Shown here piece by piece: positions 16,931 through 63,049 of a stretch of DNA of 64,000 nucleotides. Under the pieces are notes generated by a model. It had not been told where the DNA came from. It worked only from the letters and a program-made list of their open reading frames with translations, and searched no databases. The number at the start of each line of letters is the position of its first letter. Positions within the stretch are counted from its first letter, which is position 1. The position numbers and the translations under genes were made by a program. The DNA is from Sparassis latifolia (Eukaryota; Basidiomycota; Agaricomycetes; Polyporales; Sparassidaceae): NCBI GenBank assembly GCA_018466975.1, contig CM031563.1:2108001-2172000 (forward strand). The letters are read 5' to 3'.

Positions 16931-16984
16931 CGATTAGGTGTCTTGCTGAGTTCAGGCACTGCCAGCATTATGATGGTAAACCAA

Positions 16985-35069: not shown

Positions 35070-35570
35070 TATTTTTTGTAGTGATTCTTATAGGCATCTT
35101 TGCAACAGTTTCTAGTGCCATTTTTTGTAGTCATTCTTATAGGACATTTGTAATAGTTTCTAGTCCCATTTTTTGTAGCGATTCTTATAGTACATTTGTA
35201 ACAGTTGCTAGGGTCATTTTTTGTAGTAATTCTTATAGGCACATTTGTAACAGTTTCTGGTGTCATTTTTTGTAGTAATTCTTATAGGCCCATTAGTAAT
35301 GGTTTTTAGATTCATTTTTGGTAGTAATTCTTATAGACACATTTGTAACAGTTTCTAGTCTCATTTTTTGTAGTAATTCTTATAGACATATTTTTAATAG
35401 TTTCTCGGGTTAATTTCTGTAGTGATTCTTATGTGTACATTTGTAATAGTTTCTAGTGTTATTGTTTGCAGTGATTCTTATAAGCATGTTTGTAACAGTT
35501 GCTAGGGTCATTCTTTGTAGTAATTCTTATAGGCACGTTTGTAAAAGTTTTTAGTGTCATTTTTGATAGT
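35070..35570 (-). repeat. 49-bp tandem repeat, reverse, about 10 units
   Basis: This is the reverse complement of the array at 33055-33486. With the adjoining repeat (35575-35970) it forms the right arm of an inverted repeat whose spacer is the subfamily B element. Confidence 0.9.
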
Positions 35571-40795: not shown

Positions 40796-40830
40796 ATATT
40801 GCTAACACCAGAACGCTCAAAGACACTAGT

Positions 40831-42263: not shown

Positions 42264-42605
42264 GTCTTCGATCAGTCCTGGATCGCAGGAGATCAGTTGT
42301 AGAAAGGGGATTGATATGACATAGAAAGGTCAGATAACGTCACAAAGGAGTCAGATTCCACAAGGAGAGCAATAGAACTTACTGTTGGGAGCCATGAGAA
42401 CTTGCGGCAGGTCACACTGACCTTGAGAGACTTGAGAAATTGCTCAAGTCCAGCGATCACATGCAAAGTATGTGGTCACGTGGCATGTGAAGTTGAACTT
42501 GGTGCAGATCGCGTCTGCCAGCTCATAGCATTGTCTGCTCCACCTCTGCTGTACTGCAACCTCTGCTTTTGAAACACCCTCATGCTTTCTTCTGCCAAGC
42601 TCACC

Positions 42606-45600
42606 ATGCCTTTGGATATCGACCTCAACTATGTTCTGCAGGCCGCATGACTGACGGCCATTGTTGCAGCGGCACCTCACCAGGACGACCCTCACTATTT
42701 GCACTGGGAGACGAGGATTTACCTCGAAGTGGTAAGTCATTGGTCAAAGGTCTGGCATGCACTCACTGAATATGCCACACAGAGTCGGCTTGAAAAGACT
42801 TTCCCGCAGCCCTTGAAGTCATTGAGGATGCCTGGGATCGTCATCAGCGCATTGCTGAAATTCACCCAGGCATACCAGCAGAAGGCCCTGGTGTGGCTGG
42901 ACCACATATTGAACGACGACGAGAGGATATACAAGAGGTACCCCCTGGCTGTGCACGAGTATGGGAAGTGTGAGGACCTGGGAAGGCAGTGGTGGACTGA
43001 AGGTGAGTAACAAGCATTGTGAGGCATCGAGTAACACACTGACTGCACCAGATCCATATTGCAAGCTGCTGCCACTGGTGAAGAGTATGCCAGCGGAGGG
43101 CTCAGGCAATGTGCCAGCCGATGATGACACCCAGGGATATGGCGCAGAGGACCTGGCGATCGGGGACCTCATCATTAAGGGGAAAGGCAAGGAGAGAGCT
43201 GACAACGAGGTCGGGACAGGCATGGTGGGTGAGCGTATCATCCACGTGGAGGCGGGGGAGGACAAGGGAAAGGGAAAGAGCAAGGAGAAGGCACAGGGGA
43301 AGGCGGCGCATGCGATGAGCGAGGAAGAGGATGGGGGAGAGGGAGAGGGAGAGGGAGAGGAGCAGGAGGGCGAGGACGATGACGATGCCAACAAAGATGA
43401 CGATAATGAGATGGCAGAAGACATGCCAGGTGCAATCCAGCCCGAATCCATTGAGATCGATGCAGCATTGCCTGCTCTGCCAACTGCCAGACTAATATTG
43501 ATCTCGCCAGCTGCCCCACCACTTCGAAAGTGCAAGGCCATCATCACGAAGTCGAGTGAGGAGAGTGAGAATGAGGAGGCGATTCTGAAGCAAAGCGGAT
43601 GAAGCCAATCGAGGTCGCAAAGGAGAAAGGCAAGGCCCCGACCACCTCTGGTCGAGTGCAGCATGTGCAGAAGAGGATGGCGCAGACCGAGGTGGAGGGC
43701 TCAAAGGTGAGCATGAAGAAGAGCGGGAAGAAGAAGAAGGCGAAGGAGTCAAGCGATGAAGAGGAAGTACCGACCATCAAGCTGCCAAAGAAGAAGCATG
43801 ATGAAGGAATACAAGAGCAAGGAGTTCATCGAAAGCAAAGATGAGACTCTGGCGCCACCTTCCAATCTACCCACCAAGACCGCAGGGGACTCTAATGCCA
43901 GTGTTGCGAAGATGAATGCCCCTGCCAAACCTGTCAAACAGACAATGAGGATCACAGCGTCACCTCATGTCACACCGAAGGGGAAGGGGAAGGGGAAGGC
44001 AAAGGTGACAGCGAAGGGGAAGGCGATGGTGAAGGCGAAGGTGATGGCATCGCAGAAGGACATGTGGAAAAAGATGTCCACCCGCATGTCTGACTTCATG
44101 TGGCACATGTAACAGATTTGGTGAGTAATGATCTTGTCAGACATTGACTTGTGCTAATGTTCCTGCAGCTCATCCCTTGTGTCAGCTGCAAGGAGAAAGA
44201 GTGGCCATGCAAGCTCAACACTGCCAACTTCGGTTGCTGCCTCGAATGTACAGCATGAGGCGTCAGTTGCAGCATTGCACCAAGGAACACGGATGGCATG
44301 TCTCTGCGAGAAAACTCACACACCGCACAGCGTGAGTTCCAAGAGATGTGTGCAGTGCTGGTGGTAGAGGGCAAGCCACTGCCAATGTCACCACCTCCAT
44401 ATGATGTCAAGGTCGACTCCAATGAGCCCGACAGTGCAGAACCCATGGTCATGGGAGTGTCAAAGCACAAGCCACCGAAGAAGACCAAGACATGCAATGC
44501 TGCAGCATCCAGCTCCAAGGTCAAGGGTGGCGAGGAGGTCGAGGTGACAAAGCAGAAGGTGACCGTCACGCCCAATGAAGCCAATGCTGAAGGCGAGGCC
44601 TCAGTGGAGAAATCATCGAAGTCCAAGCGTGCCACCAAGTTTGCCACCGCCACTGGAGCTGTGGCTCCGTCAAACTCTGGCGAGGTCGCCAACTCTGGTG
44701 AGGTCTCCAAGTCTGGCATGCCTGCCAAGTCTGGTGCGGTCGCCAAACCTGGTGAAGGTAAGAAGTCAGGACCCAAGCCAAAGCCGGTGAGGAGCCAAAA
44801 CTCAGGTGCACAAGATGGTAGCGAGGTCATCAGGACCTCAGTACGTGAGGCAGATGAGGTCCCACCTGCCAAGTCTGTTGCGAAGGAGGGCGAGCAGATG
44901 ACAAGGGTGGCGATGGGAGGTCGCTCGGGCCCAATGGTGCCCGTGATCACCAGGAAGGCCAAGGTGAATGCTCGGAAGGCAGCAGCCAAGGTGCCTCTGG
45001 CAGAAGGTGATGGTATGGAGGAAGCCGCCAGGCTGTCAATGGAGGTGGTGCAGGCTATGGCCTTCCAAACAGGGCCAGCTGCTCCACTGCAAGCTAGCAG
45101 CAGCAAGCACATGCTGACACCAGTCGCCAACGAACCAGAGGATGCGCCAGAGTATCAGGCAGAGGTGGCAGAGGATGAGGTAAGCAGGACATCTTGTCGC
45201 AGCTGGAGTCGATGTAACTATGAAACAGCATGTGTCCTTCAAGCAGCCACACAATGATCAGCGGCGTTCACTGCTGACTCCCCATGAGATGAGCGCAGGA
45301 GCTGCCGAGGTGGCACAGGAGGTGACACCCTCCCTGGAGATATCCAAGGCATCAAAGGGAGCGAAGTCCTCCACATTGGCGAAGGCAGGACATCTCGATG
45401 AAGGGTGAAGGCCAGCTAAGAGGGGCGCCCCACTGGACCGCAAGGCAGTGAAGAAGGAGGCGGAGGCGAAAAGGGATGCGAAGGTGAACCGCCTCAGAGC
45501 AGTGCCTCCGACCAGCAAGGGTAAGTGCGCCCGCCACAGCTTTGAATCCATGCAGCGCTGACCAGGGATACAGCACCCCACTTGTGCGACGTCCAGCAAG

Positions 45601-46295
45601 TGTCTACAGGAAGTCCTGCTCCAGTGAACAAAGGCGACACCCCCAGTGGCGAAGAAACCTCGCAGTCATCCAACGATGACTGCGCGAATTGTGCCGAGTT
45701 GCGACAGGAGTTCCTGGCACACAAGGATGGGATGGAAGTCCAATTTTAGGAGAGGATGGCAGACCTCAACACCGTCAAGGCAGAGATCACAGCAGCACTC
45801 CAGTGAATCAACCCGCCATTCGCACTTCAAGAAAATGCCCGGAGCATTCATGAAGAGGTCAAGTTGGCCATGGAGGAGTTTTGCAGGCCGGTCACCATTG
45901 AGCTTCAGGAGAGCATGAAGTTGGCAGTGGCGGACCTCGTTGCCAAGCAACATTGCCTGCCAGAGCTCAAGGAGAAGGTTAACAGGTTGGAGCAAGGTGC
46001 GAACCAGACGGTGAGTCAGGCGGACGTTGAGAAGCTGCAGAGTGAATTGGCCAACCTCCGTCATTCAATGGAGCTCCAGGCAGTGTGGTCAGACAGCATG
46101 GAGAAGGAGCTCAGGTCTTCAGCGGCAGAGGCGATCGCTCAAGCGAGCAAGCTGGAGATGGAATTGGCGCTTGTCAAAGAGGATTCGATGGTGGTGATGA
46201 TGTCCGCTTTGGATGAAGTGAAGAAGGTGGGGAAGGAGGTAGGGATGGTGAGAGAGGAAACCTCACTGGTGGCTAAGTCTTTGGATGCATTCTGA
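42606..46295 (+). pseudogene. large Zn2Cys6-cluster protein with C-terminal coiled coil, broken by stops
   Basis: A multi-exon gene starting MPLDIDLNYVLQAA. The first exon (to 43002) is helical (WSKVWHALTEYATQSRLEKT, LLKFTQAYQQKALVWLDHIL). A 49-bp intron (43003-43051) leads to a long Lys/Glu/Asp-rich linker (43052-44110) over a purine-rich DNA tract, with frameshifts near 43590 and 43795. After the intron ending at 44168 comes LIPCVSCKEKEWPCKL, then FGCCLECTA and GVSCSIAPR. The cysteine spacing CX2CX6CX9CX2CX6C fits a fungal Zn2Cys6 DNA-binding cluster. A Ser/Ala/Lys-rich region with SGEVANSGEVSKSG-type repeats follows. An intron lies at 45180-45228, then a coiled coil ends the protein (LKEKVNRLEQGANQTVSQAD, VEKLQSELANLRHSMELQ). 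Stops: TGA 42648, 44256 (inside the zinc cluster) and 45406; TAG 45747; TGA near 45807. A nuclear DNA-binding role is inferred from the cluster only. Confidence 0.75.
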
Positions 46296-46731
46296 GAGAA
46301 GGTCGACTCTGCCATGGTCTTCACCGCCTTTTGCCCAGATAGCCACAATGTGTAGTCATTAAAGTATTGATATACATGCTTTTTAACCTAGCATGGAATC
46401 TCCATGCACTCGATTCACCACCGCCACTCCAAGTCAACTGAATGCCTGCTGAAGTTCTTGCCCACTCCCCTCGCCATCGCCACCATCTCCATGGCTTTAC
46501 CTATGTAGATCTATGGGTCACATTATAGAAGGTGAAACAATGTGAAAGCCTATGAGTCTACTTTGAACTGGAGTTATATTGTCAAGGTCTGGTGCCGCCA
46601 CTGCGGATCTTGCAACCTGTGCCAACTTTGCCACTCTCTTTTACTTTGGCGGCTGCTTTCCCCAGATGCACCGGCTTCAGCTTGGTTTCTCCCTTGTCCT
46701 TGACCTCTGGGGTCTGAGGCAGAGCTTGTCT
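46296..46731. other. spacer between convergent genes
   Basis: Nothing beyond the two gene ends could be supported. An AATGTGTAG..ATTAAAG stretch just after 46340 could be 3' untranslated sequence. Confidence 0.4.
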
Positions 46732-49700
46732 TCACTTTGCGGGAGGCTTGCCACCATCATCCAAGTCCTCGGCCCTCGCATTCTTCTTCCTCGGTGAGGC
46801 CACTACCAACTCGTCCCGAGTACCACGTCCACGCTTCCGAGGTGGCGGATTGTCTTCGCCAGAGCTGTCTTCACCATCGGGCTCGAGATGTGCTGGTTGA
46901 CGTTTCTGCTTTGGATCAGGAAGCTTCTTCAAATCTTTAACAGCTCCTAGTGGATGCTGACTGCGGGTATTCTTGGCGGGCGACTCATCCATCGCTTGAC
47001 ACTGACTGCGAGTGATCCTGCCGAAGATATTACTCTGAAGGGCATCGGTGATTGACCTTCCCTGGAGTGCTTTGGCTTGACCTGATGGATGGTCTTTCAT
47101 GGCTGCCGCCTTCCTCATCTTAGGTATAAACGGAGGCGGTGGTGGCGGCGGTCATTCAGCACCACTGCTAGGTACGGACAAGTGTGCATCGTCCTCTTCG
47201 GCCATCATCAGAGGCCCCACCACCGGTCTCCTAACTCGGCCCTTCATCTCCTCCACTTGGAATGATTGGGTTGTCGACTGTGGCAGCAGGCTGGCGAGCC
47301 TTGTGAACTTTGGCAGCTGTAGCAGTGCCATCATGAGTTCTTGCAGAGGCATCACCTTCCTGCTCCTCCTGGCCCCCAAGGCCATCGCCACCTTGAGGGG
47401 CACTGCGTATGGCAGGCTTGCTCACTGGCTTCACCATGGCATGGGTGACATTCCCTTCCACCATGTCCAAGGTAATGATCTCACAACAGCGAAGCAGCTG
47501 CTCTACTGCATCAAATGAGATCACCGAGTTCACCACTAGTCAGGAAGGTTGGTCGGTTCACCCTCCTCAATAAACTGAGATCGTGTGAGGTCCCTTAGTG
47601 CTATATCAATCACGAGTGCAGATTGTTGTACACCCTGTGGATGTAAGAACTGATATTTTGTCAGCCATGGTTTGTCGCACAACCAGTTCTTGATGATGTC
47701 AAAGTTGTCCATGCATGGAATGACGGCGGGAGGTAGTGCTGGCCATATGACCATTCACTCCAGGGAATCGGATCATATCTGGCGAAATGATACACCTGGG
47801 GCTATATGACAGATGATCAATGGTGGCTATGAATCCCCATGAAAGGAGCTCATCACAGTTGCAATCTTGACTTGCTTCAGCATATCCTGGTATCGCGGTT
47901 TGATGGAAAGGGTGGTGAGAAACATGTCTCTCCTTTTGACGAGGTGGGGCACAGTACTCCCCACAGTACTCCTGCCAGTGAGATGCGGGGCTCGGCCTTG
48001 AAGCTCAAGCCTCAGCTCCTTTGTACTGGGCTCCAGTTCACTGGATGCTTCATCAGTCTTCTCTGTGTCAAATCTGTGCAGTGCACCCAGAGGAAGGTCT
48101 TGGAGACCTCACTTTTCCTTCGTCTTGACACCGCCGCTACCACTCGCTTGAGGTGCACCGCCATTGTTAGCCTTACTCCATTGGTGGTGGCGACCGCCTT
48201 GCCCTTCGCTTTATTCACAATCATGCTCTCGCCATCCCCTGAATCTTTATCGCTGGCCGTATCTTCTTCAGAAGCCATGCTGGGTATATCTGGTAAACTC
48301 CAATCAGAGTCTTGGCTGCTTCTGGCATCATCTTCCGAGTCGTATACATCTTTCATCTTGCGTTTACACCCACTGCCTTTGGCTCCACCAGGGGCAGCTT
48401 TGCCCTTTGTCGCCTTCGATACCACCTTTTCTGTGACCTTGCGCACAGGTTTACCCTTCTTCTTCGCCTTCCCTGCCTTCTTCGGTGTGAGTGCTTCTTG
48501 GACCTCATGTTCAGATCCTTCTTCTAATGCCTGTGCTGATCCGTCAAGTGGTGGAAGAGGATCATACTTGGCAGGAGCAGCTTCGTCATCCTTGTTGAAG
48601 TACTGGGTGAATCGCATGGTCTGCTCAGGTCCATGTTCCTCTTGGTGTGCCCGCCAGTGGTCAAGGAGGACACGAACGGGAACACTTATCAACTTTGAGG
48701 GATCGATCCACTGGAAGTTCTCAGGTAGCACCTCCGCTGGAATAAACTCATTGATGTTGTCTATGCTGTTTAGCTTTGTCCATGGTGACTTGCAGTTTTG
48801 AACACCCTTCGCCAATGCTGTAAACTGGTCAGCATCTCTCAACACCCAGTGGGAGTGTCATACCGTAGTGATGATTCATGAAGTCTCAAACTTGTACCTT
48901 CATCACCTTGAGAGGTGCTTCCATCATACCTTCGGGCACCGATGGGAGCAGAGGAAAACTGTTGGCCATCAACCGAATCTTGTCCATGGCCCGCATGCAA
49001 TCGGCAGGTGTCTTCTTCACCATCACCGTAGTCTCAGTCACACCTAAGGAATCAGATCAGTGTGCCAGCGACAATGCAACTGAGGTCTTCTTACCATATT
49101 GGCCTTTGGCCCACTCAGAGAACACCTTTGCTAGAGGCTGGTAAGCATGCAGCCACCCAGGATAGGCCCCGAATGGAGTTCCATTGGTGATGGCATGGTT
49201 GACCTCCACCCTTCACTTGGGGGTTAGCAGATGGCGACAGTCGGACGGTCTACGCTCACATCTCTACCTTCAGACTCCCCGCTTCCTTCGAATATGCTAG
49301 CATGAATGCCATGCGAATGCCCATGGTGTCCCACATAGTCTTGGCAAATTTCTTCAGATATTGCATCATTCGCTGCTCCCTCAGCCTGTCTTAGGTCAGG
49401 ATTTGCCTTATGCTACATGACAGGAGGTACGCACTTCATTTTTGTCTTATCATCCAGAGCGTCATTGCACCAACTCTCTGCCTTTTCCTCTTTTGCTCCT
49501 CCTTGGACAGTTTTGCCCATTTGGCACTCCGTGTGACTCTCCACACCTTGGAGACATTGCAACCCTTTTCTGCCATGAGTGCTCTCGCTGCCTCAGTCAC
49601 CTTGTCCCTCTCCAGCGCATCCCACACCTTGAAGGAATTGGGCTTGCCCGAAACATGCATACACTTTTTCGTCACTTTCTCCTGCACATGGCGGGCGTGG

Positions 49701-50035
49701 TTATTGAGCCACTCTCAGATTTTCTATGATGAGAGTTAGTGGGGACCTCACAGACATGAAACACTGCTCACAGTTTCCACAATGATGTCATCATAATTTG
49801 ACATGTCAACAAACTGTGTCTTCAGCTTCTGGCGCAAGCTCTGAACCAGAGTCTTGCGTCCCTTGGCATCTGCCATGTCATAAGACCACAGCTTCTCAGA
49901 GAGTATGGGCTGATGCTCCATCAAAATTACAAATCTTGCCGGCATGCTTTCCGATGTCGAGGATGAGATTTTTGTGTTGGGGCAGTGAAGGGGGTCGATA
50001 GTTCAATGGGCAGCACTCTGTCCATTTCCTTGTCA
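46732..50035 (-). pseudogene. unknown Lys-rich nuclear-type protein gene, broken
   Basis: I do not recognise the family. The minus-strand reading starts MADKEMDRVLPIELSTPFTA (50035), continues RFVILMEHQPILSEKLWSYD and TQFVDMSNYDDIIVE, then KVTKKCMHVSGKPNSFKVWD, RVTRSAKWAKLSKEEQKRKR (49690-49440), and MVKKTPADCMRAMDKIRLMA. Then comes a 277-residue open block (48845-48012) with FQWIDPSKLISVPVRVLLDH, WRAHQEEHGPEQTMRFTQYF and a basic region (KKAGKAKKKGKPVRKVTEKV), then IIKNWLCDKPWLTKYQFLHP (47650), and a tail rich in R/K/D/P ending RKKNARAEDLDDGGKPPAK at 46735. Frameshifts are evident at about 49940, 49430, 47990 and 47230; a TGA at about 47147 precedes a run of prolines. The 320-residue plus-strand frame at 47839-48801 is a shadow of the intact block. 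It converges on the Zn2Cys6 gene and lies near the TET/JBP-KDZ pair. Confidence 0.6.
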
Positions 50036-50558
50036 GCCATCCACAACTCAACATGCACGTGCTGATGGCCCATTTGGGCTTACACTAATTACTCTCATTG
50101 CCATGGTGTGTGGTGACTGCTGAAGCATTGTATGTGTATTTTTCGCAGTGGCGGGAGGTGGTAGTAGGTATGCACTAGCATTCATGCCTGGTGAAAGGCA
50201 ATGTTGAATGCCACTTCTATGGCAGAGCACACCACACCAACTCTATCTCGCGAATGCTGGGCGGAGGCAATCTGGTGATCATCTGCATACCAATCTGTGA
50301 GATAAAGGGCTTCCTCGGAGTTAGGCTTGGCCAATTAGATGGCAGTGATGAAGGGCCCAGACATGGCGGACCACCCGGCCTGTGATCTGGCATGGCAGCA
50401 TCAAGTCCAGCTCGGCGGCATGATAAACATGTGAGATGTGCAAGGGATGTGCTTGCAAGCAACATGCAGGCAGATGAATGCACACTGTGCTTTGCCATTG
50501 TGGCCCCTCCTACATTCTCCCCTGCATCTGCAAGCCAACTGCCTGTCCATCCGCCCTC

Positions 50559-51125
50559 CTATTGGAGTGCAATGGCATTGCGGATGCTCTTGTGAAGGCC
50601 ATCCGTAATCCTGGTAGTCATTAGTCTTGCCGCAGGTCTGATCACACTAATCATGCCATTGTAATAGTAAGGCTGCAGTGGGACATTGATAGATATTGCG
50701 ACAGCCTTTCGATTCACCCCACGGGGCAGAATGAAGTCCTCGAGGCAGAACTGGAATGGAAGTGGCCTCCTCCATTTGGTGAGAGCAAAATATGCATAGA
50801 CTAGCCTGCCACCCTCGTGGACATGCACGGACGCATCTTGGCTTGGATACTTCCAAGAGTGTTGATACCAGACTGCCAGGTGAGTGGCTTGCCCAGCCTT
50901 GCGCTGTGATCTGACAAATTTGTCAGATGAAGATGCTCCAAGCGACCAGGGCCCTACACCCAGTAATAGCAGCCAGTAAGCCTTCCAGCACCACCGCCAG
51001 TTGGCGATACAACCCCTTGTACTTCTTGCCTCCTGAGGAGTGTGCCCAATTCCCAGCGGGCTCCTTGTGTCTCTCACCAGGTTAGTTCCAACAAGTAAGA
51101 GAGGTGGGTCTCCTCGCCATGCCAT
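50559..51125 (-). CDS. possible unknown gene, 188 residues
   Basis: The minus-strand frame is open for 188 residues. Its second half looks like real protein ([60 protein letters not shown]). I know no matching family. The plus strand, which should hold the N-terminal region of the TET/JBP remnant, also has readable text near 51000 ([20 protein letters not shown]), so strand choice is open here. If real, this gene would be divergent to the dioxygenase and overlap its upstream part. Confidence 0.3.
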
Positions 51126-51159
51126 TTGCCTTGCGTCTGGACAGGCTTTGCAGCATATG

Positions 51160-51680
51160 GAGTCTGGGAGGCTGGAGACCTCTGCAAGCCTGAAGCTTGA
51201 GGGCAGAAGAAGTTGGCTCTGTGATATTCATGACTCCTTCATATTGCTGGGCGCCATCCTGGCCGTCGTTCACCCAACGCTATATGCCGCAGGACGCCAG
51301 TGCTTGGGTTTGATCCAGCAAGACCCAGAATTGTGAGAGATGGCACTGAACTGGTCATCACCATTCAATGCACTCCAGGTGATCGCCAACCAGGAAACTC
51401 CTTTCCACCGAGATAGCAAGACAAGATACATGTTCTACGACCTGTTGGCGACATTGGGCAACTACACTTGTGTATGGTTGAACTTCCCCGCCATGCGTGT
51501 CACCATCAATTATAGTCCTGGAACCGTCATAGCCTTCTGCAGAAAGGCAATTCGTCATGGCGTCACTCGAGCAGATGGCAAAAGGCTCATTTATGCATAC
51601 TTCATGTGAGAGGGTGTCCAGAACAGGCTGGGCATTCCGGCGCCCCACTGGATGCAAGCTTCATATTATGCCTCACACAT
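51160..51680 (+). pseudogene. TET/JBP-like 2-oxoglutarate/Fe(II) dioxygenase remnant
   Basis: The plus strand reads DIHDSFILLGAILAVVHPTL, then WSSPFNALQVIANQETPFHR, DSKTRYMFYDLLATLGNY, FPAMRVTINYSPGTVIAFCR, KAIRHGVTRADGKRLIYAYF and LGIPAPHWM. This is the double-stranded beta-helix core of the Tet_JBP family, which oxidises 5-methylcytosine or thymine in DNA. Candidate metal ligands are all present: His and Asp of HRD (51406-51414) and the His of RHG (51556-51558); a following basic residue (KRLIYAY) fits the 2-oxoglutarate site. Two stops break it, TGA at 51334 just before the core and TGA at 51607 just after, both where CGA (Arg) is expected. The N-terminal part is not readable with confidence. 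The KDZ transposase starts 0.7 kb downstream on the same strand, an association known in basidiomycetes. Confidence 0.8.
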
Positions 51681-52384
51681 TGGCATGTGCACAGTTCATC
51701 ACCGAGTCTGCATTCCTAACTCAGAACAGGTCCTAACTGGCTCGCTTATTAGAGGGACATCATGCCAAAGACTGATGGAGATAAGAACACTATGCAGGGG
51801 ATGGAGACTGTCGATGGCAGCTTCATTGGTGGGACAAAGTTGGCAAAGGTGATGGCAAAATGTATGGAGTCACAAATTTCCGAATCCTAGCTGAAGGTTG
51901 GCAAGCGCGTGGTACGAGTGTGCATTTCAGATCTCAACAATGTTCAGCTCAAGGTATATTTATCACTGATGGCAGTATATGGTTGGCAGACCTCGAAGTT
52001 GGCAGAGGTGGTCACAAAATGTATTCAGTCAAGAAGTTGTGAGTGCTTGTGGGGCAGATGGCAGCAGTGTTGGTGAGCGCGTGGTGCAAGTGCAAGTTTC
52101 CCTTTTGAAAATTATGCTACTCCGAGTCAACACAAAGTTAGCACTGAGGGCAACATATGATTGGCAGACCTCTCACCAACATGGCATCCTTATCTCCATA
52201 ACACCAATATGGTGCCTAAAGAGACCACAAGGTGATAGGGCCCAGGCATTGCAGCCATTCGTAACCACCTTCTTGATGGGTAGTCTGGTGGGCAGCAAGG
52301 TCATGTGTGATTTGCATGTGTTGTGCGATAGGGACACAATGCTCATCGATGGGTTTGGAATACGGCTCCCCACTGACCTGAACC
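51681..52384. other. spacer between dioxygenase remnant and KDZ transposase
   Basis: It holds two diverged copies of a block with GTTGGCAAAGGTGATGGCAA (about 51839) and GTTGGCAGAGGTGGTCACAA (about 51999), roughly 160 bp apart, each followed by a GCGCGTGG block. No gene could be supported; it may contain the transposase promoter. Confidence 0.45.
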
Positions 52385-53505
52385 ATGAGCAGATGCAACA
52401 AAAGCAGGCTTGTTGTAGACCTGGATGACGAGGTTGAGTTTGTGACCAAGGTAGCTAAGCAGACCACTAGGGGAGTGCACTATGTGGATGTACCTTTGCC
52501 CATGCTCATGGGTTCAAATGCCCCATTGCTTTCCAAAAGTCCATCGAAGGCTCCTGCTTCAGGCTCCTTGTTTAACTTGGATGATGGTGACATCCTGGGC
52601 AACATAGGTGTACCGATTCAGCTGGATCCAGCGGCTCGGAAAACAAAGGTGGGCACTCTCGCTATGATCATCTGATGGTCTGACCATGCCCGATAGACCC
52701 AGAATGACTTCATGAGGGACTGGATACCCCACCATGATGACTATCTTCATGCCATTATCGAGATGGAAGCCCCACCTGAGCCCAGAAACTGTGCAGAATG
52801 CAAGGTTGGCAAGGGATGGTGACGATGCCTGGACTGTATGGGCAGACCGCTCACCTGTACCGACTGCTGTCGTAATGGCCATTAGCATACTTTTTTCCAT
52901 CAGATAGAGCATTGGCAGGGTCAGTATTTTGAGCCGGCATCACTGTATCGGGTCGGCATCTGCATCCATTTGGGGCATGGCAGAGATCCCTGCCCTCTGG
53001 GTGCCTTCACAGCACATAAAAACCCTGTGCTGGTGGTGGCCCCGGGGTCCAATTTCTGGAATGCCTCCAATGAAGACCTAAATGCACATGATGGTGAGGT
53101 CCCAGATAATGGCGAGGTTCCATTCGACTTTGCACCTCTGGCAGGCACCCTTGACAGTGAAGCAAGGCAAACTGACAATGCTCCCGATCCCACTTGGGAG
53201 GAAGATGTGCCACCAGTGCTCTCCCGGCCACCTCACCATAATAGTTATGGGAATCGGATCATGGTCATTGTCGACATCTCTGGTGTTCACCATATCGGCG
53301 TTGACTGATGCCAGTGTGAGATGGCGGTGGAGCGTGACATGCAGCTTCTTCAAATGGGACTTTACCCTGGTACCATCAAGGATCCCCATACCACCTTCAC
53401 ATTCACCGTCCTCGACGATTTCCTTCTGGAGAACAAGGAGCGCAAGATGGTGACATTGAACTACTACAGCAAGCTCAAACGGGTCACGAGCAATGCCTTC
53501 CCTGG
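52385..53505 (+). pseudogene. CxC2-type KDZ transposase, 5' part
   Basis: KDZ (Kyakuja-Dileera-Zisupton) transposases mobilise large fungal DNA transposons. The frame starts MSRCNKSRLVVDLDDEVEFV; a 48-bp intron at 52649-52696 joins DPAARKTK to TQNDFMRDWIPHHDDYLHAI. The cysteine cluster follows: RNCAECKVGKGW, RCLDCMGRPLTCTDCC, then HQIEHWQGQYFEPASLYRVG, LGHGRDPCPLG, VIVDISGVHHIGVD and CQCEMAVERDMQLLQMGLYP, then FTFTVLDDFLLENKERKMVT and LNYYSKLKRVTSNAFPG. This order is the CxC2 module that precedes the KDZ catalytic domain. The frame is intact except for three stops: TGA 52820 and TGA 53306 (both at expected Trp) and TAG 52883. It is cut at 53506 by a CACTT-type terminus, so the catalytic RNase H-like domain is absent. 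Confidence 0.9.
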
Positions 53506-53959
53506 CACTTTAGGGTACCTCCTATCCCTAGCTCTTAGCCTCAATATAATCTACTGTTTGTTGTGGCTAAGAGCCTCCCAGGGGGTGGTCTGCCCATGGG
53601 ATTAGTGCATGGCCCACTGGTCCTGTGGGACATCTCACAGCTGAGAAGGTCCTGAAGTGGGAGCTACTTGAGGGTACTATCTGAAAGGGCCCATGGGCTC
53701 TATATCTTTCCTGTTGTCTAGGTTCTCCCATGGACCTCCCTTGCATTATTACTGGTTAAAGAGTATCAGGGGGGATTCTGGACCTCCTGTAGTCTGGTAT
53801 TTTTCAATTCCTAGCTTATATCTTATTGTACTGTAGGTCTTATGCTACTTGCCCTCTTCTTACTGTGCATTCTAGAACTATATGTGTGCAGCTGTAAATG
53901 CAAATTCAGAATTTCACAGATATATATTTGCATCTAATCATGGTATATAGGTCTCTTCT
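53506..53959 (+). mobile_element. diverged CACTT-ended element, left end
   Basis: It begins CACTTTAGGGTACC inside the KDZ gene and follows the family text CCCTAGCTCTTAGCCTCAAT and GTGGCTAAGAGCCTCCCAGG. At 53641-53655 a possible right-end-like word (GGTCCTGAAGTG) appears, which would make a mini-element of about 150 bp. Further family-like text (ATTACTGGTTAAAGAGTATC) continues past it, so the element probably extends into the tandem arrays. The KDZ sequence does not resume. Confidence 0.65.
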
Positions 53960-54330
53960 CACATCTGCATGACTTGTTGGAGTAGGTGTCATTGCAGGCC
54001 TCCTTGAATGACTTGTTAGAGTAGGTGTCATCACAGGTCTGCTAGAATGACTTGTTGGAGTAGGTGTCATCACAGGCCTACATGAACGACTTGTTGGAGT
54101 AGGTGTCATCACAGGCATCTTTGAACAACTTGCTGGAGTAGGTGTCATCGCAGGCCTCATTGAACAACTTGTTGGAGTAGGTGTCATTACACACCTCCTT
54201 GAATGACTTATTGGAGTAGGTGTCATGAATGACTTGTTGGAGTAGGTGTCATTGCAGGTCTGCTAGAATGATTTGTTGGAGTACATGTTGTCACATGTCT
54301 GCTTGAACACATTGTTTGTCAATGCAGGAA
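53960..54330 (-). repeat. 39-bp tandem repeat, about 9 units
   Basis: Units read GACTTGTTGGAGTAGGTGTC then ATCACAGGCCTNCTTGAAT. Since 39 is a multiple of three, the minus strand shows an open 13-residue repeat (MTPTPTSHSSRPV type); I regard it as an artefact. Confidence 0.9.
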
Positions 54331-54595
54331 CAAAGCATTAATATCTGTATTTTTGCTTATCTTATGATTAACTAGGTTTCAGTGCAAAAGTAAATCATGC
54401 AACACCATTTTACGCTATATCATACAGAAGTTGCCCTCATCGCCTACTATTAATTTTACATTATACTACATTGAAATCTATTTGTATGTATAGTGCTCAC
54501 CATTTACTAATTATCACTGACACATCTCTTATTAATGTGATGCATCTCCTGCGTTACCCGCAATGAAGCTATGGTCATATATCAGATCAACCTTC

Positions 54596-55800
54596 TACAT
54601 CATATATATTGGACTTCCTGTCTGACAGTGAATAGTCTTCCCAAGGCTCTATTTAGTATGGTGGACCTCCTGTCTGACAGAGCATGGACTTCCTAAGGTC
54701 TGTAGTGGGTGAGATGGACCTTCTGCCTCATATAGAATGGACATCCCAAGGTCCCTACTGGGTGAGATGGACCTCCCGCCTCATATCAAATCGACATCCC
54801 AAGGTCTGTACAGAGTGAGACCGACCTCCCGCCTCATATCAAATGGACATTCCAAGGTCTCTGCTGGGTGAGACGGACCTCCCGCCTCATATCAAATGGA
54901 TATCCCAAGGTCTGTACAGAGTGAGACGGACCTCTCGCCTCATATAGAATGGACTTCCCAAGGTCTGTACTAGATAAGATGGACCTCCGCCTCATATCAA
55001 ATCGACATCCCAAGGTGTGTACAGAGTGAGACGGACCTCCCGCCTCATATGGAATGGACATCCCAAGGTCCCTACTGGGTGAGACGGACCTCCCGCCTCA
55101 TATCAAATGGATATCCCAAGGTCTGTACAGAGTGAGACGGACCTCTCGCCTCATATAGAATGGACTTCCCAAGGTCTGTACTAGATAAGATGGACCTCCC
55201 GCCTCATATCAAATCGACATCCCAAGGTGTGTACAGAGTGAGACGGACCTCCCGCCTCATATGGAATGGACATCCCAAGGTCCCTACTGGGTGAGACGGA
55301 CCTCCCGCCTCATATCAAATGGATATCCCAAGGTCTGTACAGAGTGAGACGGACCTCTCGCCTCATATAGAATGGACTTCCCAAGGTCTGTACTAGATAA
55401 GATGGACCTCCCGCCTCATATCAAATCGACATCCCAAGGTGTGTACAGAGTGAGACGGACCTCCCGCCTCATATGGAATGGACTTCCCAAGGTCCCTACT
55501 GGGTGAGACGGACCTCCCCCCTCATATCAAATGGACTTCTCAAGGTCCATACTGGGTGAGATGGACCTCTCGCCTCATATAGAATGAACTTCCCAAGGTC
55601 CCTACTAGGTGAGACGGACCTCCCGCCTCATGTCAAATGGACTTCTCAAGGTCGGTACTAGGTAAGACAGACCTCCCACCTCATATCAAATGGACATCCC
55701 AAGGTCTGTACAGAGTGAGACGGACCTCCCATCTGATATCAAATGGACATCCCAAGGTATCTACTGGGTGAGACGGACCTCCTGCCTCATATTAAATGGC
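54596..55800 (+). repeat. 53-bp satellite with 212-bp higher-order repeat
   Basis: About 22 monomers of 53 bp: GAGACGGACCTCCCGCCTCA, TATCAAATGGACATCCCAAG, GTCTGTACAGAGT. Four monomer types in fixed order form a higher-order unit of about 212 bp, starting at about 54764, 54973, 55184 and 55396. The later units are almost identical to each other, while the outer monomers are diverged. Confidence 0.93.
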
Positions 55801-56008
55801 CTTTTCAAGCTCGGGATTTTTCATGCACCTCCCATCCTATGGTGATAGGACATCCCAAGGCCTTTATTTTGTACTGTGAACCTCCCATGTCCCACAAAGT
55901 GCCCACATATATTGTAAACACAATCTCGCAGATAAATCTCATGATATATTGACAAGTCCCAAACTGGGTCATAGTATCGGAGATAATCCAAATTTAACTA
56001 CCTAAGTC

Positions 56009-59000
56009 TTATTCGTCATAGTACACCGGATCGTCGAAAAGTGCACCGACGTCATCAGGTGCATAGTCAATATAGCTTGGCCCCACCTCCGCATGACAAT
56101 GAGAGTACTTGCCACTTGGCCCAGCAACAGCATTAGTGAAAGTTCTGCCCGGTGTCGCTCGACCTGCATGCATCGACTGCTGAGGCATCCTACCTTCATC
56201 AACAAACTCATCCTCCTCCTCAATAACATTATCTGCCCGTCACACGAAGTCTTGCTGTCCCGCCCCTCGGGTGTGAGCTTGGTAGTGATAACGGTGGTTC
56301 TTGTCCTCTTGGATGCTAAGGTCTTGATTGGAGGGCACCACTAAAGGTTGAGGATGACCTGCGCGTTGCAACTGTGACCGATGCGCATGAGACGCCAGAC
56401 GAGGAGGAAATCCAGCAGCAGGGGAGTAGCCGCATGCATGCCCGCCAATAGAATTGCTCACCCGTGGGACATATGCAATGGTCGGGGAGTAGCCGCGTGA
56501 ATATCCAGTGCTCGGCGCGTTGCCCGATGGAAGCCGCGAAGGAGGGATAACAGAGGGCAGCCTGATACCTCGAGTATGAGAGTCAGATCGGTGCGCCTCT
56601 CACTTTGGCAAGGGCGCGGCATGGCGCTTGGGCAACTGGCCTTGATAACGAGTGGCAGCTCTATTGTCAATGCCAGCATGCATGCTGTCAGCACTGCTGT
56701 ATCCTTCGAGCTCATCCTCGTACTGCCTTCTACTGCGAGGGGCAACGTGACCATGGGGAGATGCAGCATGCTGTAAAGGGAGGCATGTTGTGGCCCCGCG
56801 GATGTCCCTGATGACAGGAATAACTTCTTGGACCTCATCTAATTGAACATCTTTGTTGATGTCTAGTTCCCGGCGATGCTTGCGAACTTGATTTGTACCG
56901 CCGACCTTTGTTGCAGAAGGAGCCTTGGTACCGGCTGACTTGGACTTGGAACGCTTGCTCCGCAGCAGCGGCGGCGGCGATGGCAGCAGTGCCTCCTGGT
57001 CCTCCTCCTCCTCCTCACTCTCGGAGTTCGAATCAAGCTCAGGCTTGGTCGCTAAACATCCAGGCACCTTCAGTGAATCCTTTGCGTCGCGCACGAGCCG
57101 GAGCCTGGTGCCCTCAGCATTAATGACAAGTGGGATGAGTGCATGGCATGGATCGAGCACCAACAACTCCATGTCATCTAGAAGAGACCTGTTAGACTAA
57201 CATCACAACATGGCGAGCATCAACTCACCCTCGTGCCATTTAACGATCCGCGGAATCTTGAGATTTGTGTGCCCATGCAGAATAGCCCTCCGTAAGCATT
57301 TTCAGTTCATTAGTCTTCAAGTTCTTATAGTTGAAATCGGGTCCCGGCGCCGGTATGCGTGCAGGCCAGTCTACGATGCAGAGACTATGTCATGATGCGA
57401 TTTTCAACCAATTCATCCAGTGGACGCATACAACGGTGGGATTGTATTGTTCTGCGAGCATGTAATGTCAGCATGAGGCAGGTACACGAGTGAAAAGAAT
57501 ACATACGCAGAGTCTCTTGCATCATGCCAGTGAAGATACGCTGATAGCGATCACGAGGATTCTCCTTAACCTTCGCCTCGACAACGATGCTATGGCCAAA
57601 CTTCGTTGGCAAGTTGAAGCCCTCCAAGCTAAAGTGAGATGACCTGGGTTGATCGTGAGCGATGAATGACAATGACACTAAACAAAAACTTACTTCAAGC
57701 TCGTAGTGAGGAAGTCGAGGAACGTGCGAACATCAAGTCCATTATCTTTGACGAGCTTCTTCACGGCCGGCGAACCACTGAAGATCTCGCAGACATTTGG
57801 CATCCCGCGGTATCAGTTCTGACATAGAGGATGGCCCGATGACTTCCATGTCAGCAAGATTCTGATATGAAGCTGCCTGTTACTTGACCATCAGATGCAG
57901 AACAAAATAACGTCAGAATTCACATACCAAATCCGTGAACTGGTCCTTCGCACTCATCATCCGTGCCGTGATAGACTTCATAGAGGTCGGCCCGACATTC
58001 GCATCGTCGAACTCGCGATCATCGCACATGACATGGATCGACTTAATGACTGCCTCCCGTCCATCCTCATCGTCAGGGTCAACATTCTTGAACAGCTTTC
58101 GACATTGTCAGCACGACGTCTGAGGCTCTTGCTGCACCGAAGCATCTCCTGATCCCTAGTCTTAGCGTAGTCACTCTCTGAAGGTTCCGACTCGTCGTGC
58201 TCTACAATCTGAGTCAGCGAACATCACCAGCATATCAAAATGAACTTACCCTCATTACAACTTTCTGAACGTCGCTCCTGTCCAATGTTGTTGCCCTCCC
58301 GATCGAGCACCTGGCGAACATCGCCATCAGTGGAAGTGTCGATGCCCATGACATCAGTAATGGCAGCCGCATCTTCATGCATGATGACATTGAACTCTAC
58401 GCCTAGCTCGTCGTCACTGGGTGCATCTTCCTCATTATCATCACTGAGAATGGCTGGCATGTCAATGCCTGGGTTCACACTACCAACGGGTACGTCACTG
58501 TCAGCATGCTCCTCCATTCCCTCAGACGGTGGCGGCATGAGTGGCGGCACCATATCTGTCACCGGATCACGTTGAGTCCTCTTCGACCGAGGCAGTGCGA
58601 CATCCTGAAAAATTAACAGGCCATTCAATAGCTGTCAGTACAATAGAATGAAATATACGCTGGACCGACGTACCTCCGGATCGTCACTGTTGACCTCTTC
58701 TACTGTTGAATGTGTCGTTTGGACGGTGCTCTTCCTCAGAGGTTGCTTCCGATTATTCGACACATCCGCGGGAATGTCCTGCAGGATAGCGGAGAGTGGA
58801 GTGTTAGTTGAAGTACCAAAAAAAACATTTTGAAGTACCTCGTCAGTGGCGTCATGCTCATCAGCAGCATCATGCTCATCAGCAGCGTCATGCTTGTCAG
58901 CATCAACATTGCCAGCTGGTGCCTTGCGCCGGGCACACGCTTCTTCCCCTTCCCCTTCGGTTTTGGCTTAGGCCTCGGTTTGGGTGGAACCTGCAAATTA

Positions 59001-59227
59001 AATGTTAGAAACTGATCCTATTGAGAATAGGCATGACTAATCTGACTCTCATCCTCGTCATGAGATACATGGATATCACCGACTGCCAGGGAAGCACGCT
59101 TCTTTGCGCTCGCCCTGCGAGGTAGAGGAGGGAGAGCTTCTAAAGCGACCTTATCGGGCTTTGACCGAGACCTCAGAGTGCGAGGTTCAATGACATCTGG
59201 AGGACCGGTGTCTTTCCTCCGAGCCAT
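56009..59227 (-). pseudogene. unknown multi-exon gene, broken by TGA codons
   Basis: I do not recognise the family. It starts MARRKDTGPPDVIEPRTLRS at 59227 and ends DDVGALFDDPVYYDE with TAA at 56011-56009. Readable exons in order: SKPDKVALEALPPLPRRASA; PPKPRPKPKPKGKGKK followed by a HDAADE repeat (about 58930-58850, frame uncertain); KQPLRKSTVQTTHSTVEEVN; DVALPRSKRTQRDPVTDMVP and an acidic stretch (58620-58260); KLFKNVDPDDEDGREAVIKS and ITARMMSAKDQFTDL (58110-57940); VKKLVKDNGLDVRTFLDFLT (57740); HFSLEGFNLPTKFGHSIVVE, NPRDRYQRIFTGMMQETL (57640-57515); PARIPAPGPDFNYKNLKTNE (57350); LLVLDPCHALIPLVINAEGT, a Ser/Glu-rich stretch, EVIPVIRDIRG, and a Pro/Ser/His-rich tail. Introns of about 50 bp separate them. 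TGA at 56602-56600 and 56242-56240 interrupt the last exon at probable CGA codons. The rest is well kept, so the loss may be recent. Confidence 0.6.
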
Positions 59228-59934
59228 ATTGCAGGTTGTCTGCGAGGGAAGGTGATTAGACAGACATGCGCGAACATGCCGAGGACGGGATAGTACAGAG
59301 GATGCGAGCGAAGGTAACTTACCAGACAATGCTCACGTTTTGAGGATGTCGGACGACGACAATACAGTTGCTGAGAGATCTGTCTGTTCAGATTACTGAA
59401 AAAAGATCAGACTCATCAGAAAACAAAGTGCGGAAGTAGTACTCACGAATCGCCATGATGCTTTGTTGTCCTCTTGATATTCACGGGCCGTGGTGGGCTG
59501 CCAACAAGTGTATCACATATTCTACTACTCAGCAAAGTGGACCAAGCCTGGGGCCTGACCATGCACCTTATGCAGAGAAATGCACAGGCATCCCGAGCAC
59601 AGGCCATGCCTTCGCAGAGGAAAACTGTCTGCGAAGGCCGAGACTCATCGGGATCGGGGGTGCACATCTGCGAAGTGACGTTAGCAATGCGGGTGCTGTA
59701 AAAGTGCGTAGACTATCCGCTCGTAGCGCGGAAACTGATGGATGGTCACATCCACTGCGAGCAGGTTGGGTTGGATACGGTGCACGAGGCGCGATCCAGG
59801 TGCACACGAATAAACTCAGCATCATGACCACTCACCGGGACGTGGAATAGCGTCGCCGAGCTTGCTGCATGTGTGAGCCAGCACACATCACCCAGGTGAA
59901 TGACGCATTTCGAAAGGCCGCAAAGGTTTAGCGG
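59228..59934. other. no confident gene
   Basis: Several short overlapping frames exist on both strands (for example 59443-59667 minus and 59455-59850 plus), but none shows a recognisable motif or convincing splice pattern. It probably contains the promoter side of the gene ending at 59227. Confidence 0.4.
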
Positions 59935-60560
59935 CACAAGGCTCTGCATCCAGCACATCGCTGGGTCAGTGTCTGCAGGAGGACGTCCTTGTCGTGTTCT
60001 GGCCCACATCGATGCATGCGAATCGGACGATGCGGCTGTTAAATGAGCAAAGAGAACCGTGAGGTGCACGCAAGATATGGGAAATAAATATAAGTACATA
60101 CGTAGTGACGGTGGAGTGTCAAGGAGAGCATGGACAGGGATAGAAACCTGGATAGAAATAATTGTAGATCAGACGAATCGGCTGGTAGACAAGCAAGGAG
60201 AACTGTAAGATGCATGCACGATATGGGATATAAAGAGAAATACGTACGTAGTGATGGTGGAGCGACAAGGAGAACACGGAGAGGGATAGACACTTGGATA
60301 AAGATGATTGCAGACTGAACGAGATGGACAAAATGATATGCACAGCAGGAAGACAGTAGATCGATGAGAGAAACTTGAAGTGGGAAGTCCTAAGTCCGAA
60401 AATGGGAAGTCCTGGTGGCAGGCTCTCAAATGTCATACAGCCTTCAAGTTCGTAGTATGTATGAGTCCTCCGTTTGCGCGTACTCTAGTACTCTATCATC
60501 TGGCTACCTGTCATCCACTATGCAATCTCTATCACATACTGATTCCCTCAACAACGTCTC
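59935..60560. repeat. duplicated flank, copy 1 (with an internal extra copy)
   Basis: The segment with TGTCTGCAGGAGGACGTCC, GCATGCGAATCGGACGATGC and ACGCAAGATATGG matches 61360-61560. A partial extra copy lies at 60165-60300. The following segment GGGAAGTCCTAAGTCCGAAA with GGCAGGCTCTCAAA (60375-60440) matches 61670-61725. A Rho-like fragment follows directly on the right. Confidence 0.8.
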
Positions 60561-60621
60561 AGTCAAGGTGCAACTCGGCCTTCTCCTTGCTTTCTGACTA
60601 TCCCGCCCTGGTTGGTTGACT

Positions 60622-61045
60622 CGTGCAGTGGATAGAAGAAGTGTGCTCCATCCATCCCTGTCATCCTCGTCGGCTGCAAATCCTACTTCCACCAACCAGA
60701 AAGTATGTCCATCTCCTCTTCATCAACCTCACTCTCACACTCCCTCTCATCCCCACCCATCTACCCTCCACTTGCCACTCATTACCTCCCACCCTACTAA
60801 TGCCGAACCCACCCAGACTTCCCCCAAGCTTCCTCCCCTGCCTTCATCTGGTGCGCCGATGCCGAGCGCATCGCCCCGGATATCCACGTGCCCGCCTACA
60901 AAGAATGCAGTGCGCTGCAGGTCGAGTCGAGGGCGTCAATGACATGTTCAATGCTATGACGTGTGCGAGCATGCTCATGCGCGAGGGTGTCCCTGTGCAC
61001 ATCCCCGCCGCCCACCACGAGCGCAGCTGCCGCATGGTGTGCTAG
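60622..61045 (+). pseudogene. Rho-family small GTPase, C-terminal fragment
   Basis: The plus strand reads WIEEV then, in a shifted frame, IPVILVGCKSYFHQPES, which is the Rho-type 'W..EV....P..LVG.K.DL' region including the G4-like position. A possible intron runs from the GTATGT at about 60701 to before 60845. Then DAERIAPDIHVPAYKECSAL matches the 'YKECSAL' G5 region, and after another frameshift EGVNDMFNAMTCASMLMREG and SCRMVC close the protein. The usual 'GE.V..VF..A.RA.L' helix and a cysteine close to the end (a CAAX-like position) are recognisable. The G1-G3 half is absent and at least two frameshifts are present, so it is not functional. It sits right after a segment that is duplicated in front of the eIF5-like fragment. 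Confidence 0.65.
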
Positions 61046-61359
61046 CCGCGGTGCCTGGTTCTGGCGGTGTAGATTTACGGAGTGATAGTTTTTGTTGATT
61101 GAGTGTGTGTACATGGATGGACGCTCGAGTATGATGAGTACGACATGTACGTATGGTATCTTGCATGGTTTCAGCTACTATTCTACATCCCCGGCAGACT
61201 CACACTTCTGTCTCGTCTTGTACCGTCTCCTCTGGATCCCTCCATGTATACTAAATAACGTGCAGTACTGACCGCAACTATGCATCATATCGTTCGCTTT
61301 CTCAGCAGTTTGGTGGTGTGGCTGGATGGGTGAATGATGAGTTTCGAGAGGTTGACCTC

Positions 61360-61800
61360 GCAAGGCTTTGTGTCCGGCACATCGCTTGGCCCGTGTCTGC
61401 AGGAGGACGTCCTCGATGTGCTCTGGCCCACATTGTTGCATGCGAATCGGACGATGCGGCTGGTAGAGGAGCAAACAGAACCATGAGGCGCACGCAAGAT
61501 ATGGAAAATGAAGATAAGTACATACGTCGTGACGCCGTGATGCGATGGAGCGATGAACACAACACAGAGAGGTATAGAAATGATTGCAGCCTGAACGAGA
61601 TGGACGAGACGATACGCACTGCAGCAGGAGGATAGTAGATCGATGGGGTATTGTGGAAAGAAATTTGTAGTGGGAAGTCCTAAGTCCGAAAATGGGAAGT
61701 CCTGTTGGCAGGCTCTCAAACGTCGTACAGCCTTCAAAGCTTCAAGTTCGTATGTACGAGTACTCCTCTGTTTGCTAGCACTCCACCATCCACCGGTTAT
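61360..61800. repeat. duplicated flank, copy 2
   Basis: It matches 59935-60110 and 60300-60480 in the same order, with the extra internal copy missing. An eIF5-like fragment follows on the right, in the position the Rho fragment takes after copy 1. Confidence 0.8.
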
Positions 61801-61917
61801 CCACGGTGCAGTCTCCGTCAAATAGCTGCGCTCAGTCTCATTTCGCCGGTGCATGGCCCAGTGCGCAGACACCTTTCTGCCTTGTGTTACTTTGCCTGAC
61901 CTTTCTCCTTCCGCAGC

Positions 61918-62433
61918 ATGTCTCTTCTGTTGACCAAGATAGAAGGCACTGGCAACGGCATCAAGACTGTTGTACCCAACATGTCTGATGTCACCCGCGC
62001 GCTAAGCTGACCGCCCATGTACCCTACCAAGTTCTTCGCCTGTGAAGTTGGCGTGCAGACGTCGTTCGACGAGAAGAACGATGGCTACATTGTTAACGGC
62101 GCGCATGATGTAACCAAGCTGCACGAGCTTCTGGATGGGTTCATCGACAAGTTCGTGCTGTGCAAGTCATGCAAGACCCCCCAGATAGATCTCATCATCA
62201 CCAAGAATGATGAGATCATCCGTGACTGCAAGGCGTGTGGCGAGCGCACTGGCATCGACATACGCTATAAGCTGATGATGTTCATTCTCAAAAACCCGCC
62301 CAAGGCCAGCTCAAAGAAGAGCAAGGGAACAAAACAGGCCAGCGGCGATGGCAGCCCGAGCCTTAGCGCTAATGGCGATGGCCATAAGAACGGCGACGCT
62401 GCAGATGAGGCAGACGTTGCTCCTTTGCTATGA
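61918..62433 (+). pseudogene. TIF5-like: eIF5 N-terminal domain, truncated, one in-frame stop
   Basis: eIF5 is the GTPase-activating protein of eIF2 in translation initiation. The frame reads LLTKIEGTGNGIKTVVPNMS, DVTRALS, a TGA at 62008-62010, then PPMYPTKFFACEVGVQTSFD, DGYIVNGAHDVTKLHELLDG, FIDKFVLCKSCKTPQIDL, DCKACGERTGIDIRYKLMMF and ILKNPP. The two CX2C pairs of the zinc ribbon are intact. The family has Arg-Pro-Pro at the stop, so TGA is a CGA change. The first about 20 residues are missing, although CCGCAG just before 61917 resembles an acceptor site. The protein ends after a Lys/Ser/Gly/Asp-rich linker at residue 172, whereas eIF5 is about 400 residues; the C-terminal HEAT/W2 domain is absent. 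It is a captured or duplicated fragment, not the housekeeping gene. Confidence 0.88.
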
Positions 62434-63049
62434 ACTCAGGATGTCCTGCTTGAGGGCATCATACAGATCGCATATGCTGCCCGTGAAATCTTCCAGTATG
62501 TCACAATACATAGTTCTGACGTTCGTGTTCTGACCGCACTGAAACACCTTGTACAATCCATCTCATTTCCAGGGCACATGCCGTTCTAACTCTAACTCGG
62601 CGTATGCTAGCCCGCACTTACAGGCACCGAACGGCTTGCTTCGACTAGTGTAGTCACTTGCCGCGATTGGCTATTCCGAGCGTGAAGACTTAGCAAGGTA
62701 ATCCCCTCTGTTTTCGAGCCCACAGACACTCGCTGAATTGTTCGCATTCACAGCTCATCGCCCAATCCATCCCTATGTCTTTCGCCGGCCAACTGCTCAT
62801 TATTGATGGTTGAGCTCGTCGGCAGATCGGCCTTCCTCTCGTTCGATATTCCCTCAGAAAACACCCCCCTCGCACGTCCACCTGATTCAACCTTCCGATG
62901 TTCCCCGCAAGTGGCGACCTCACAGCACAAAACATCTCCATCTGCCTGGGCCAGAGTGATTGGTGACACTTCCTGGATGCCTCAACTTCACGCAGTCAGA
63001 TCCATCCCGGGGGTCGCGCAGAAGGTCCTGAAATTCGATCTTCACGCCC
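62434..63049. other. spacer before the KDZ CxC1 gene
   Basis: A plus-strand frame begins at about 62803 (MVELVGRSAFLSFDIPSENT) and runs into the transposase region, but this part has no recognisable domain. The true start of the transposase may lie here. Confidence 0.4.

Follow-up and report, generated by a model that had tools for sequence, protein, structure and literature searches.

The window, that is, the whole analysed stretch of 64,000 nucleotides (C12:2108001-2172000 in a 41.4-Mb genome of 22 contigs), very probably contains a dead copy, reaching beyond its right edge, of a roughly 20-kb KDZ DNA transposon (family A) that is Kyakuja-like, bears a CxC2 cluster and carries a TET-type 5-methylcytosine dioxygenase as internal cargo. 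TET genes are numerous in basidiomycetes. A sequence-only reading had claimed a Tet_JBP-type core followed on the same strand by a CxC2 cluster, and both were recovered when the whole genome was searched with profiles. The core retains its H, D, second H and R, and the counterparts of these residues in the family A copy on contig C16 were aligned with CcTet of Coprinopsis cinerea:

51226-51597, plus strand: Tet_JBP domain (PF12851; 63.8 bits, E 2.6e-16, cut-off 34.9; profile positions 37-159 of 164), with one in-frame TGA
51406-51414, plus strand: HxD iron-binding motif (HRD), read from the sequence, with the C16-copy counterpart aligned with CcTet
51556-51558 and 51583-51585, plus strand: second iron-binding His and 2-oxoglutarate-binding Arg, read and aligned in the same way
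53249-53494, plus strand: CxC2 cysteine cluster (PF18803; 84.9 bits, cut-off 27) of a KDZ transposase gene, here a pseudogene with one TGA inside

The roles of the second His and of the Arg in binding iron and 2-oxoglutarate are those generally known for the dioxygenase superfamily. A lack of any profile hit for the 51340-51606 translation had been named as grounds for giving up the claim; the open reading frame that contains it (51337-51609) by itself scored 48.6 bits against Tet_JBP (E 7e-13).

The genome-wide search gave at least 44 Tet_JBP and at least 86 CxC2 matches. Among the 44 Tet_JBP matches listed, 30, including that of the window, are followed on the same strand by a CxC2 match at a distance of 1.50-1.82 kb, and the suspicion that the two genes might never be neighbours in other copies did not hold. 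A chance neighbourhood of TET and KDZ was rejected on the basis of this conserved spacing and strand. We compared 10 kb around the best 20 of the at least 44 Tet_JBP matches. One of these stretches, L009, aligned in the same order with the other 19 best-scoring copies at 95-99% identity; most alignments span all 10 kb, the shortest is that of L028 (6.2 kb), and L017 and L023 carry insertions. The window copy matched the 20 best copies piecewise (92-96% identity, up to 6 kb), with the match ending at about 53508, and the C16 copy is collinear with it up to 53508 and again after a nested insert.

On tracing the matches outwards, we reached a sharply defined left boundary (window 39310) and, for the C16 copy, which measures 20,002 bp, a right end at C16:86182. 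The remainder of the window copy (C12:2176160-2181803) lies beyond the window, and its right end is at C12:2181803. For comparison of the ends, the left ends of the window and of 20 other places were set against the right ends of the C16 copy and 20 others, plus that of the window copy. The family A ends are inverted over about 75 bp, starting with CACACC and CAGCCC, and are accompanied by long subterminal repeat arrays:

39310-53505, plus strand: left 14.2 kb of the family A TET-KDZ transposon, with a sharp start common to many copies and collinear with the C16 copy
39310-39385, plus strand: left terminal inverted repeat CACACCTTTCAGTCATGTT... of the CA..TG type, from the comparison of left with right ends
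39535-40401, plus strand: left subterminal repeat array, which matches the left end of the C16 copy in several overlapping alignments and has tandem repeats at 39903-40202

Joining nearest ends gave ten end pairs (C5 twice, C2, C10 twice, C7, C6 twice, C16 and the window); a pair on C17 was left out of the count because its right end was off pattern. An exact 7-bp target duplication flanks four of the ten, three of which enclose a Tet match, and the other six, window and C16 included, have no matching 7-bp duplication; as nearest ends were paired, some pairs may be recombined elements. All 462 left-right combinations contained five 7-bp matches, compared to about 0.03 expected by chance, and the fifth joins two oppositely oriented neighbours on C10. 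There, at C10:495691-560016, a minus-strand left end (515388) and a plus-strand right end (560016) have the same 7-bp flank, which is what an inversion between two opposite copies would leave. Tet, CxC2 and KDZ matches are all enclosed by seven of the ten end pairs, three of these seven with the exact 7-bp duplication. The pair C10:3640156-3660780, which has the duplication, encloses CxC2 and KDZ, with no Tet_JBP match among those listed, and the pairs C10:1232116-1242724 and C6:1522514-1530835, both without duplication, enclose no Tet, CxC2 or KDZ among the matches listed. Family A thus belongs to the KDZ transposons by its domains (CxC2 95.3 bits and KDZ, PF18758, 113.5 bits in the C16 copy) as well as by its inverted termini of about 75 bp and its target duplications in four of ten end pairs.

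In principle, a KDZ element might have inserted by chance downstream of a host TET gene, as some Tet_JBP matches have no nearby CxC2 among the matches listed, for example C7:3173839. However, this is highly improbable, given that 30 of the 44 Tet matches listed agree in their distance to CxC2 and in strand, that at least 6.2 kb of surrounding element is common to L009 and the other 19 best copies, and that Tet, CxC2 and KDZ are enclosed by seven of the ten end pairs. For the window copy, a host TET gene beside a KDZ element is refuted by its position between termini that are shared with other copies.

Two further stretches of the window, 1076-4544 and 14197-17658, have family-A-like termini and subterminal arrays and no matches to the element interior. 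They may be truncated or non-autonomous derivatives, or else belong to another family that shares these ends. Directly left of the element, window 18001-39309 is AT-rich (GC 0.36) with a CpG observed/expected ratio of 0.18, and it contains oppositely oriented 49-bp tandem arrays (33043-33486 and 35071-35564).

From left to right, the C16 copy contains an opposite-strand ORF of 435 aa, sense ORFs including a Cys-rich one, opposite-strand ORFs with an HMG-like motif, the TET gene, and the CxC2-KDZ transposase gene. One piece of the presumed cargo was also recognized in the window:

49436-49714, minus strand: ORF, part of a presumed cargo gene, without a Pfam match in the window piece

Its C16 counterpart matched HMG_box_2 below the cut-off (E 0.011). 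A genome search with HMG_box gave 12 matches, none of them at known element positions, and a Pfam scan of the remaining cargo ORFs gave none above the cut-off. Among named proteins, those of Sparassis crispa and S. latifolia (Polyporales) come nearest to the TET and KDZ genes, so a Sparassis is the probable source of the genome. In S. crispa, SCP_0211750 (KDZ) and SCP_0211810 (TET) have locus tags six steps apart and lie on equally long contigs.

Alignment of 21 copies (the best 20 and the window) and S. crispa proteins showed that the TET is a six-exon gene of 460 codons. Projection of this exon map onto the window gave the following:

50464-51890, plus strand: TET/JBP dioxygenase pseudogene
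50464-50545 and 50546-50613, plus strand: exons 1 and 2, both cut by a 208-bp deletion
50668-50879, 50927-51103, 51154-51705 and 51753-51890, plus strand: exons 3, 4, 5 and 6
50545-50546: junction of the 208-bp deletion, which took out intron 1 with the adjoining parts of exons 1 and 2; the C16 copy has 208 extra bp here

A like step at this junction is also seen against most others of the best 20 copies. With the present exon model, the TET is fully open in one of the 21 copies, that on C1 (460 codons); many defects among the copies are indels of 1-2 bp and may be assembly errors. Of the 21 copies, 17 retain the complete set of five GT..AG introns (not so L014, L021, the truncated L028 and the window), and H, D, H and R are retained in all 19 copies of the 21 that were scored. 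The best solved relative of the cargo is CcTet (E 7e-26), with which the exon 5 stretch of the C16 copy was aligned. The C16 copy retains the equivalent of CcTet Asp337, which 5mC activity is described as requiring, and has Thr in place of Gly331, to which 6mA recognition is ascribed (PMC12730594). HxD instead of HxE, the second His, the Arg and the Asp337-equivalent Asp identify the cargo as a TET/JBP of the AG type.

Counting distinct variants in 20 copies, we obtained pN/pS values of 0.54 (0.36-0.79) for TET exons 1-4 and 0.58 (0.42-0.84) for exons 5-6. The transposase gave 0.63 for CxC2, 0.65 for KDZ, and 0.75 (0.53-1.00) for a third ORF in 18 copies. Shifted frames gave 0.90-1.47 for TET and values as low as 0.75 for CxC2 and 0.77 for the third ORF, so that the contrast is modest (0.75 vs 0.63 and 0.77 vs 0.75, respectively). 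These ratios, into which decay after insertion is mixed, suggest that selection maintained the TET and the transposase to a similar degree.

The window copy is dead. Its TET has four in-frame stops and the 208-bp deletion, and its transposase gene is split by a second KDZ transposon (family D), for which the uninterrupted site is present in the C16 copy:

53506-64000 and on to C12:2176159: nested KDZ transposon of 14,654 bp, delimited by breakpoints and termini
53499-53505: 7-bp target duplication TCCCTGG of the nested transposon, with the second copy at C12:2176160-2176166, outside the window
63452-63643, plus strand: CxC2 of the nested transposon (27.4 bits), with one TGA inside

The nested transposon has inverted termini beginning CACTT(T/C)AGGGTACCTCC..., a KDZ core just past the window at C12:2172187-2172929 (77.7 and 99.8 bits), and no Tet_JBP match at E up to 0.001. 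Within it, window 53969-55803 contains two minisatellite groups with 39-bp and 53/212-bp units. The family A element resumes at C12:2176160, and because of the 14.65-kb insertion from 53506, its own KDZ core lies beyond the window. The dead TET-KDZ module proposed earlier was borne out, and as seven of ten end pairs enclose Tet, CxC2 and KDZ, a placement on or beside the mobile element narrows to on it. The interval 51160-53505 had been drawn too small: it does hold TET and CxC2, but the TET gene is larger and the unit is about 20 kb instead of 2.3 kb. Likewise, the CxC2 part of the supposed transposase is in this interval, but the KDZ catalytic core is absent, having been displaced to C12:2176828-2177199 (89.5 bits). 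Of the intact paralogues envisaged, less-decayed copies with the same order do exist, including the one with a fully open TET, which is, however, only one of 21. The CpG observed/expected ratio is 0.47 in the window copy (39310-53505) and 0.78 in the C16 copy, a difference that is consistent with a greater age of the window copy.

Strong C-to-T decay at CpG was found in the TET-bearing copies. In 17 of the best 20 copies (L017, L023 and L028 were dropped because of insertions or truncation, and the window was left out), singleton C-to-T or G-to-A changes affected 353 of 1188 CpG bases as opposed to 222 of 4320 other C/G bases. Per copy, the change frequency was 0.105 at ACG, 0.064 at CCG, 0.061 at GCG, 0.037 at TCG, and 0.011 or less elsewhere. 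This decay is of the CpG type and differs from the TCG pattern described for Pucciniomycotina in PMC12730594, and the TET-bearing copies were therefore probably once methylated.

In the mechanism that we propose, the transposase would recognize the inverted termini and subterminal arrays and move the whole unit of about 20 kb, and the TET would oxidize 5mC, perhaps also 6mA, on silenced element DNA. This oxidation could last long enough for expression or transposition of the element. An inserted copy would then be methylated by the host and undergo C-to-T decay at CpG; the window copy would have decayed in this way and was, earlier or later, also split by the second KDZ transposon. The TET would serve the element. 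It is possible, though in our view rather doubtful, that the cargo has a function different from demethylating the element so that it escapes, in that oxidized bases or an action on 6mA might mark the ends for transposition, or host chromatin might be changed genome-wide. Such a function would suit the CpG hypermutation of TET-bearing copies, which suggests that they once carried 5mC, and also the oxidized 5mC on retrotransposons in Coprinopsis and Laccaria, for which untargeted action has been speculated (PMC12730594), but it is at odds with the Asp that the C16 copy keeps at the position reported in PMC12730594 as essential for 5mC (CcTet Asp337), and with the Thr at the Gly331 position of 6mA recognition.

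As a role of TET in protecting its own element could leave a trace in CpG decay, we compared families. In the same 1-kb KDZ stretch, CpG transitions and other changes stood at 56:13 in family D (five of nine stretches) and at 77:94 in family A (20 copies), where random sets of five averaged 36:33, which points to less CpG decay in family A (p about 5e-4 on rounded means). Four family D stretches were omitted, three being near-identical and one having no passing pair. Among the matches listed, the nested family D copy has no Tet match, and the other four of the five stretches used are more than 200 kb from one or share no contig with one. In another KDZ group, family C, the CpG shares of 0.32, 0.38 and 0.57 were at the low end of or below the range of family A (0.38-1.00; 28 pairs, 8 copies). 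Family C comprised seven stretches at least 60 kb from the nearest Tet match, and three of its 21 pairs passed the filter for length and divergence. The two comparisons are mixed, and as the family ages are unequal, they permit no conclusion on protection by TET in cis.

Not all Tet matches belong to the family A layout. Five of them (C10:4950538, C9:283737, C14:688115, C11:2344673 and C8:489342) lie 10.8-12.2 kb from a CxC2 in divergent orientation, and the CxC2 partners are of another profile class (24-106); the pairing of C14:688115 (11.2 kb) was read off the match tables, and its nearest CxC2 is a different one. At the one of these five loci that was read, the TET has 30% and the KDZ pieces have 40-59% identity to the Sparassis family A proteins. 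The simplest reading of these sequences is that the divergent arrangement probably represents a separate TET-carrying KDZ family (family B). Tentatively, one may imagine that transposon-borne TET does not protect its element from long-term methylation but is active only briefly, about the time of transposition, and that families A (same strand, 1.6 kb) and B (divergent, about 11 kb) keep TET independently for that purpose.

Altogether, 14 of the 44 Tet matches are outside the family A layout, and the four that were read are one of family A, one of family B, C7:3173839, and one that is not TET-like. The locus of C7:3173839 (L075, C7:3173600-3174500) contains a divergent TET-like frame with 30% identity to the S. 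crispa TET and with H, D, H and R kept. Contig C7 ends about 4 kb from this frame, and the matches listed include no CxC2 within 1.2 Mb of it. The frame could be a host gene. Together with the many TET genes of basidiomycetes (PMC12730594) and the one fully open TET copy found here, it would agree with a TET that is kept as a domesticated demethylase for the benefit of the host, the transposon being the vehicle. We consider this improbable, since 30 of the 44 Tet matches listed are in the element layout; with four of the other 14 read, an element-free TET is still conceivable.

Resistance to host silencing is the role ascribed to TET-carrying transposons, and this genome offers a natural test set for that, with 30 same-layout Tet matches, a probable second TET-positive family, and KDZ groups without a Tet match of their own in the sampled copies. 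As all these groups are in one genome, the host background is constant for comparisons of their methylation, decay and mobility.

Iyer et al. 2014 reportedly found KDZ transposons linked with a divergent HMG domain and with an expansion of TET/JBP genes. Our data resemble this in the association of TET with KDZ and perhaps in an HMG-like cargo, with the HMG match here below the cut-off, and differ in that we defined the element ends, for one family in one genome. CcTet (PDB 7vpn and 7w5p, with 8jkk as a near-equal match) aligns with the family A TET at HxD, H and R and differs in having Gly for 6mA recognition where family A has Thr, as compared over the exon 5 stretch. KDZ1-KDZ3 of Cryptococcus neoformans are 9-11 kb long with CxC1 and with duplications of 8 bp (KDZ1) or 4-8 bp (KDZ2, KDZ3) (PMC12810828). 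They share with family A a KDZ transposase with a Cys cluster and inverted repeats, and insertion into a reporter gene was reported for them; unlike for family A, the available part of PMC12810828 names no TET cargo and mentions JBP once.

The closest counterparts are the TET-positive Kyakuja DNA transposons of Agaricomycotina, Polyporales included, which combine a KDZ transposase and an AG-type TET in one element (Kojima 2025; PMC12730594). They have 7-bp target duplications and 5'-CA..TG-3' termini, and escape from methylation was proposed for them, an anti-silencing function that according to PMC12730594 is not experimentally validated. Sparassis has no mention in the main text of PMC12730594, although the family may already be listed in its Table S1, and our literature search found no paper with both Sparassis and Kyakuja. 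Two TET-positive Kyakuja families of Laccaria are described there as lacking inverted repeats, in contrast to the inverted sequence of about 75 bp of family A. With KDZ and AG-type TET in one element, 7-bp duplications and CA..TG termini, family A nevertheless fits the description in PMC12730594 as a probable further member of the TET-positive Kyakuja, to which our analysis adds a probable second TET-KDZ arrangement and the strong CpG C-to-T decay of the TET-bearing copies.
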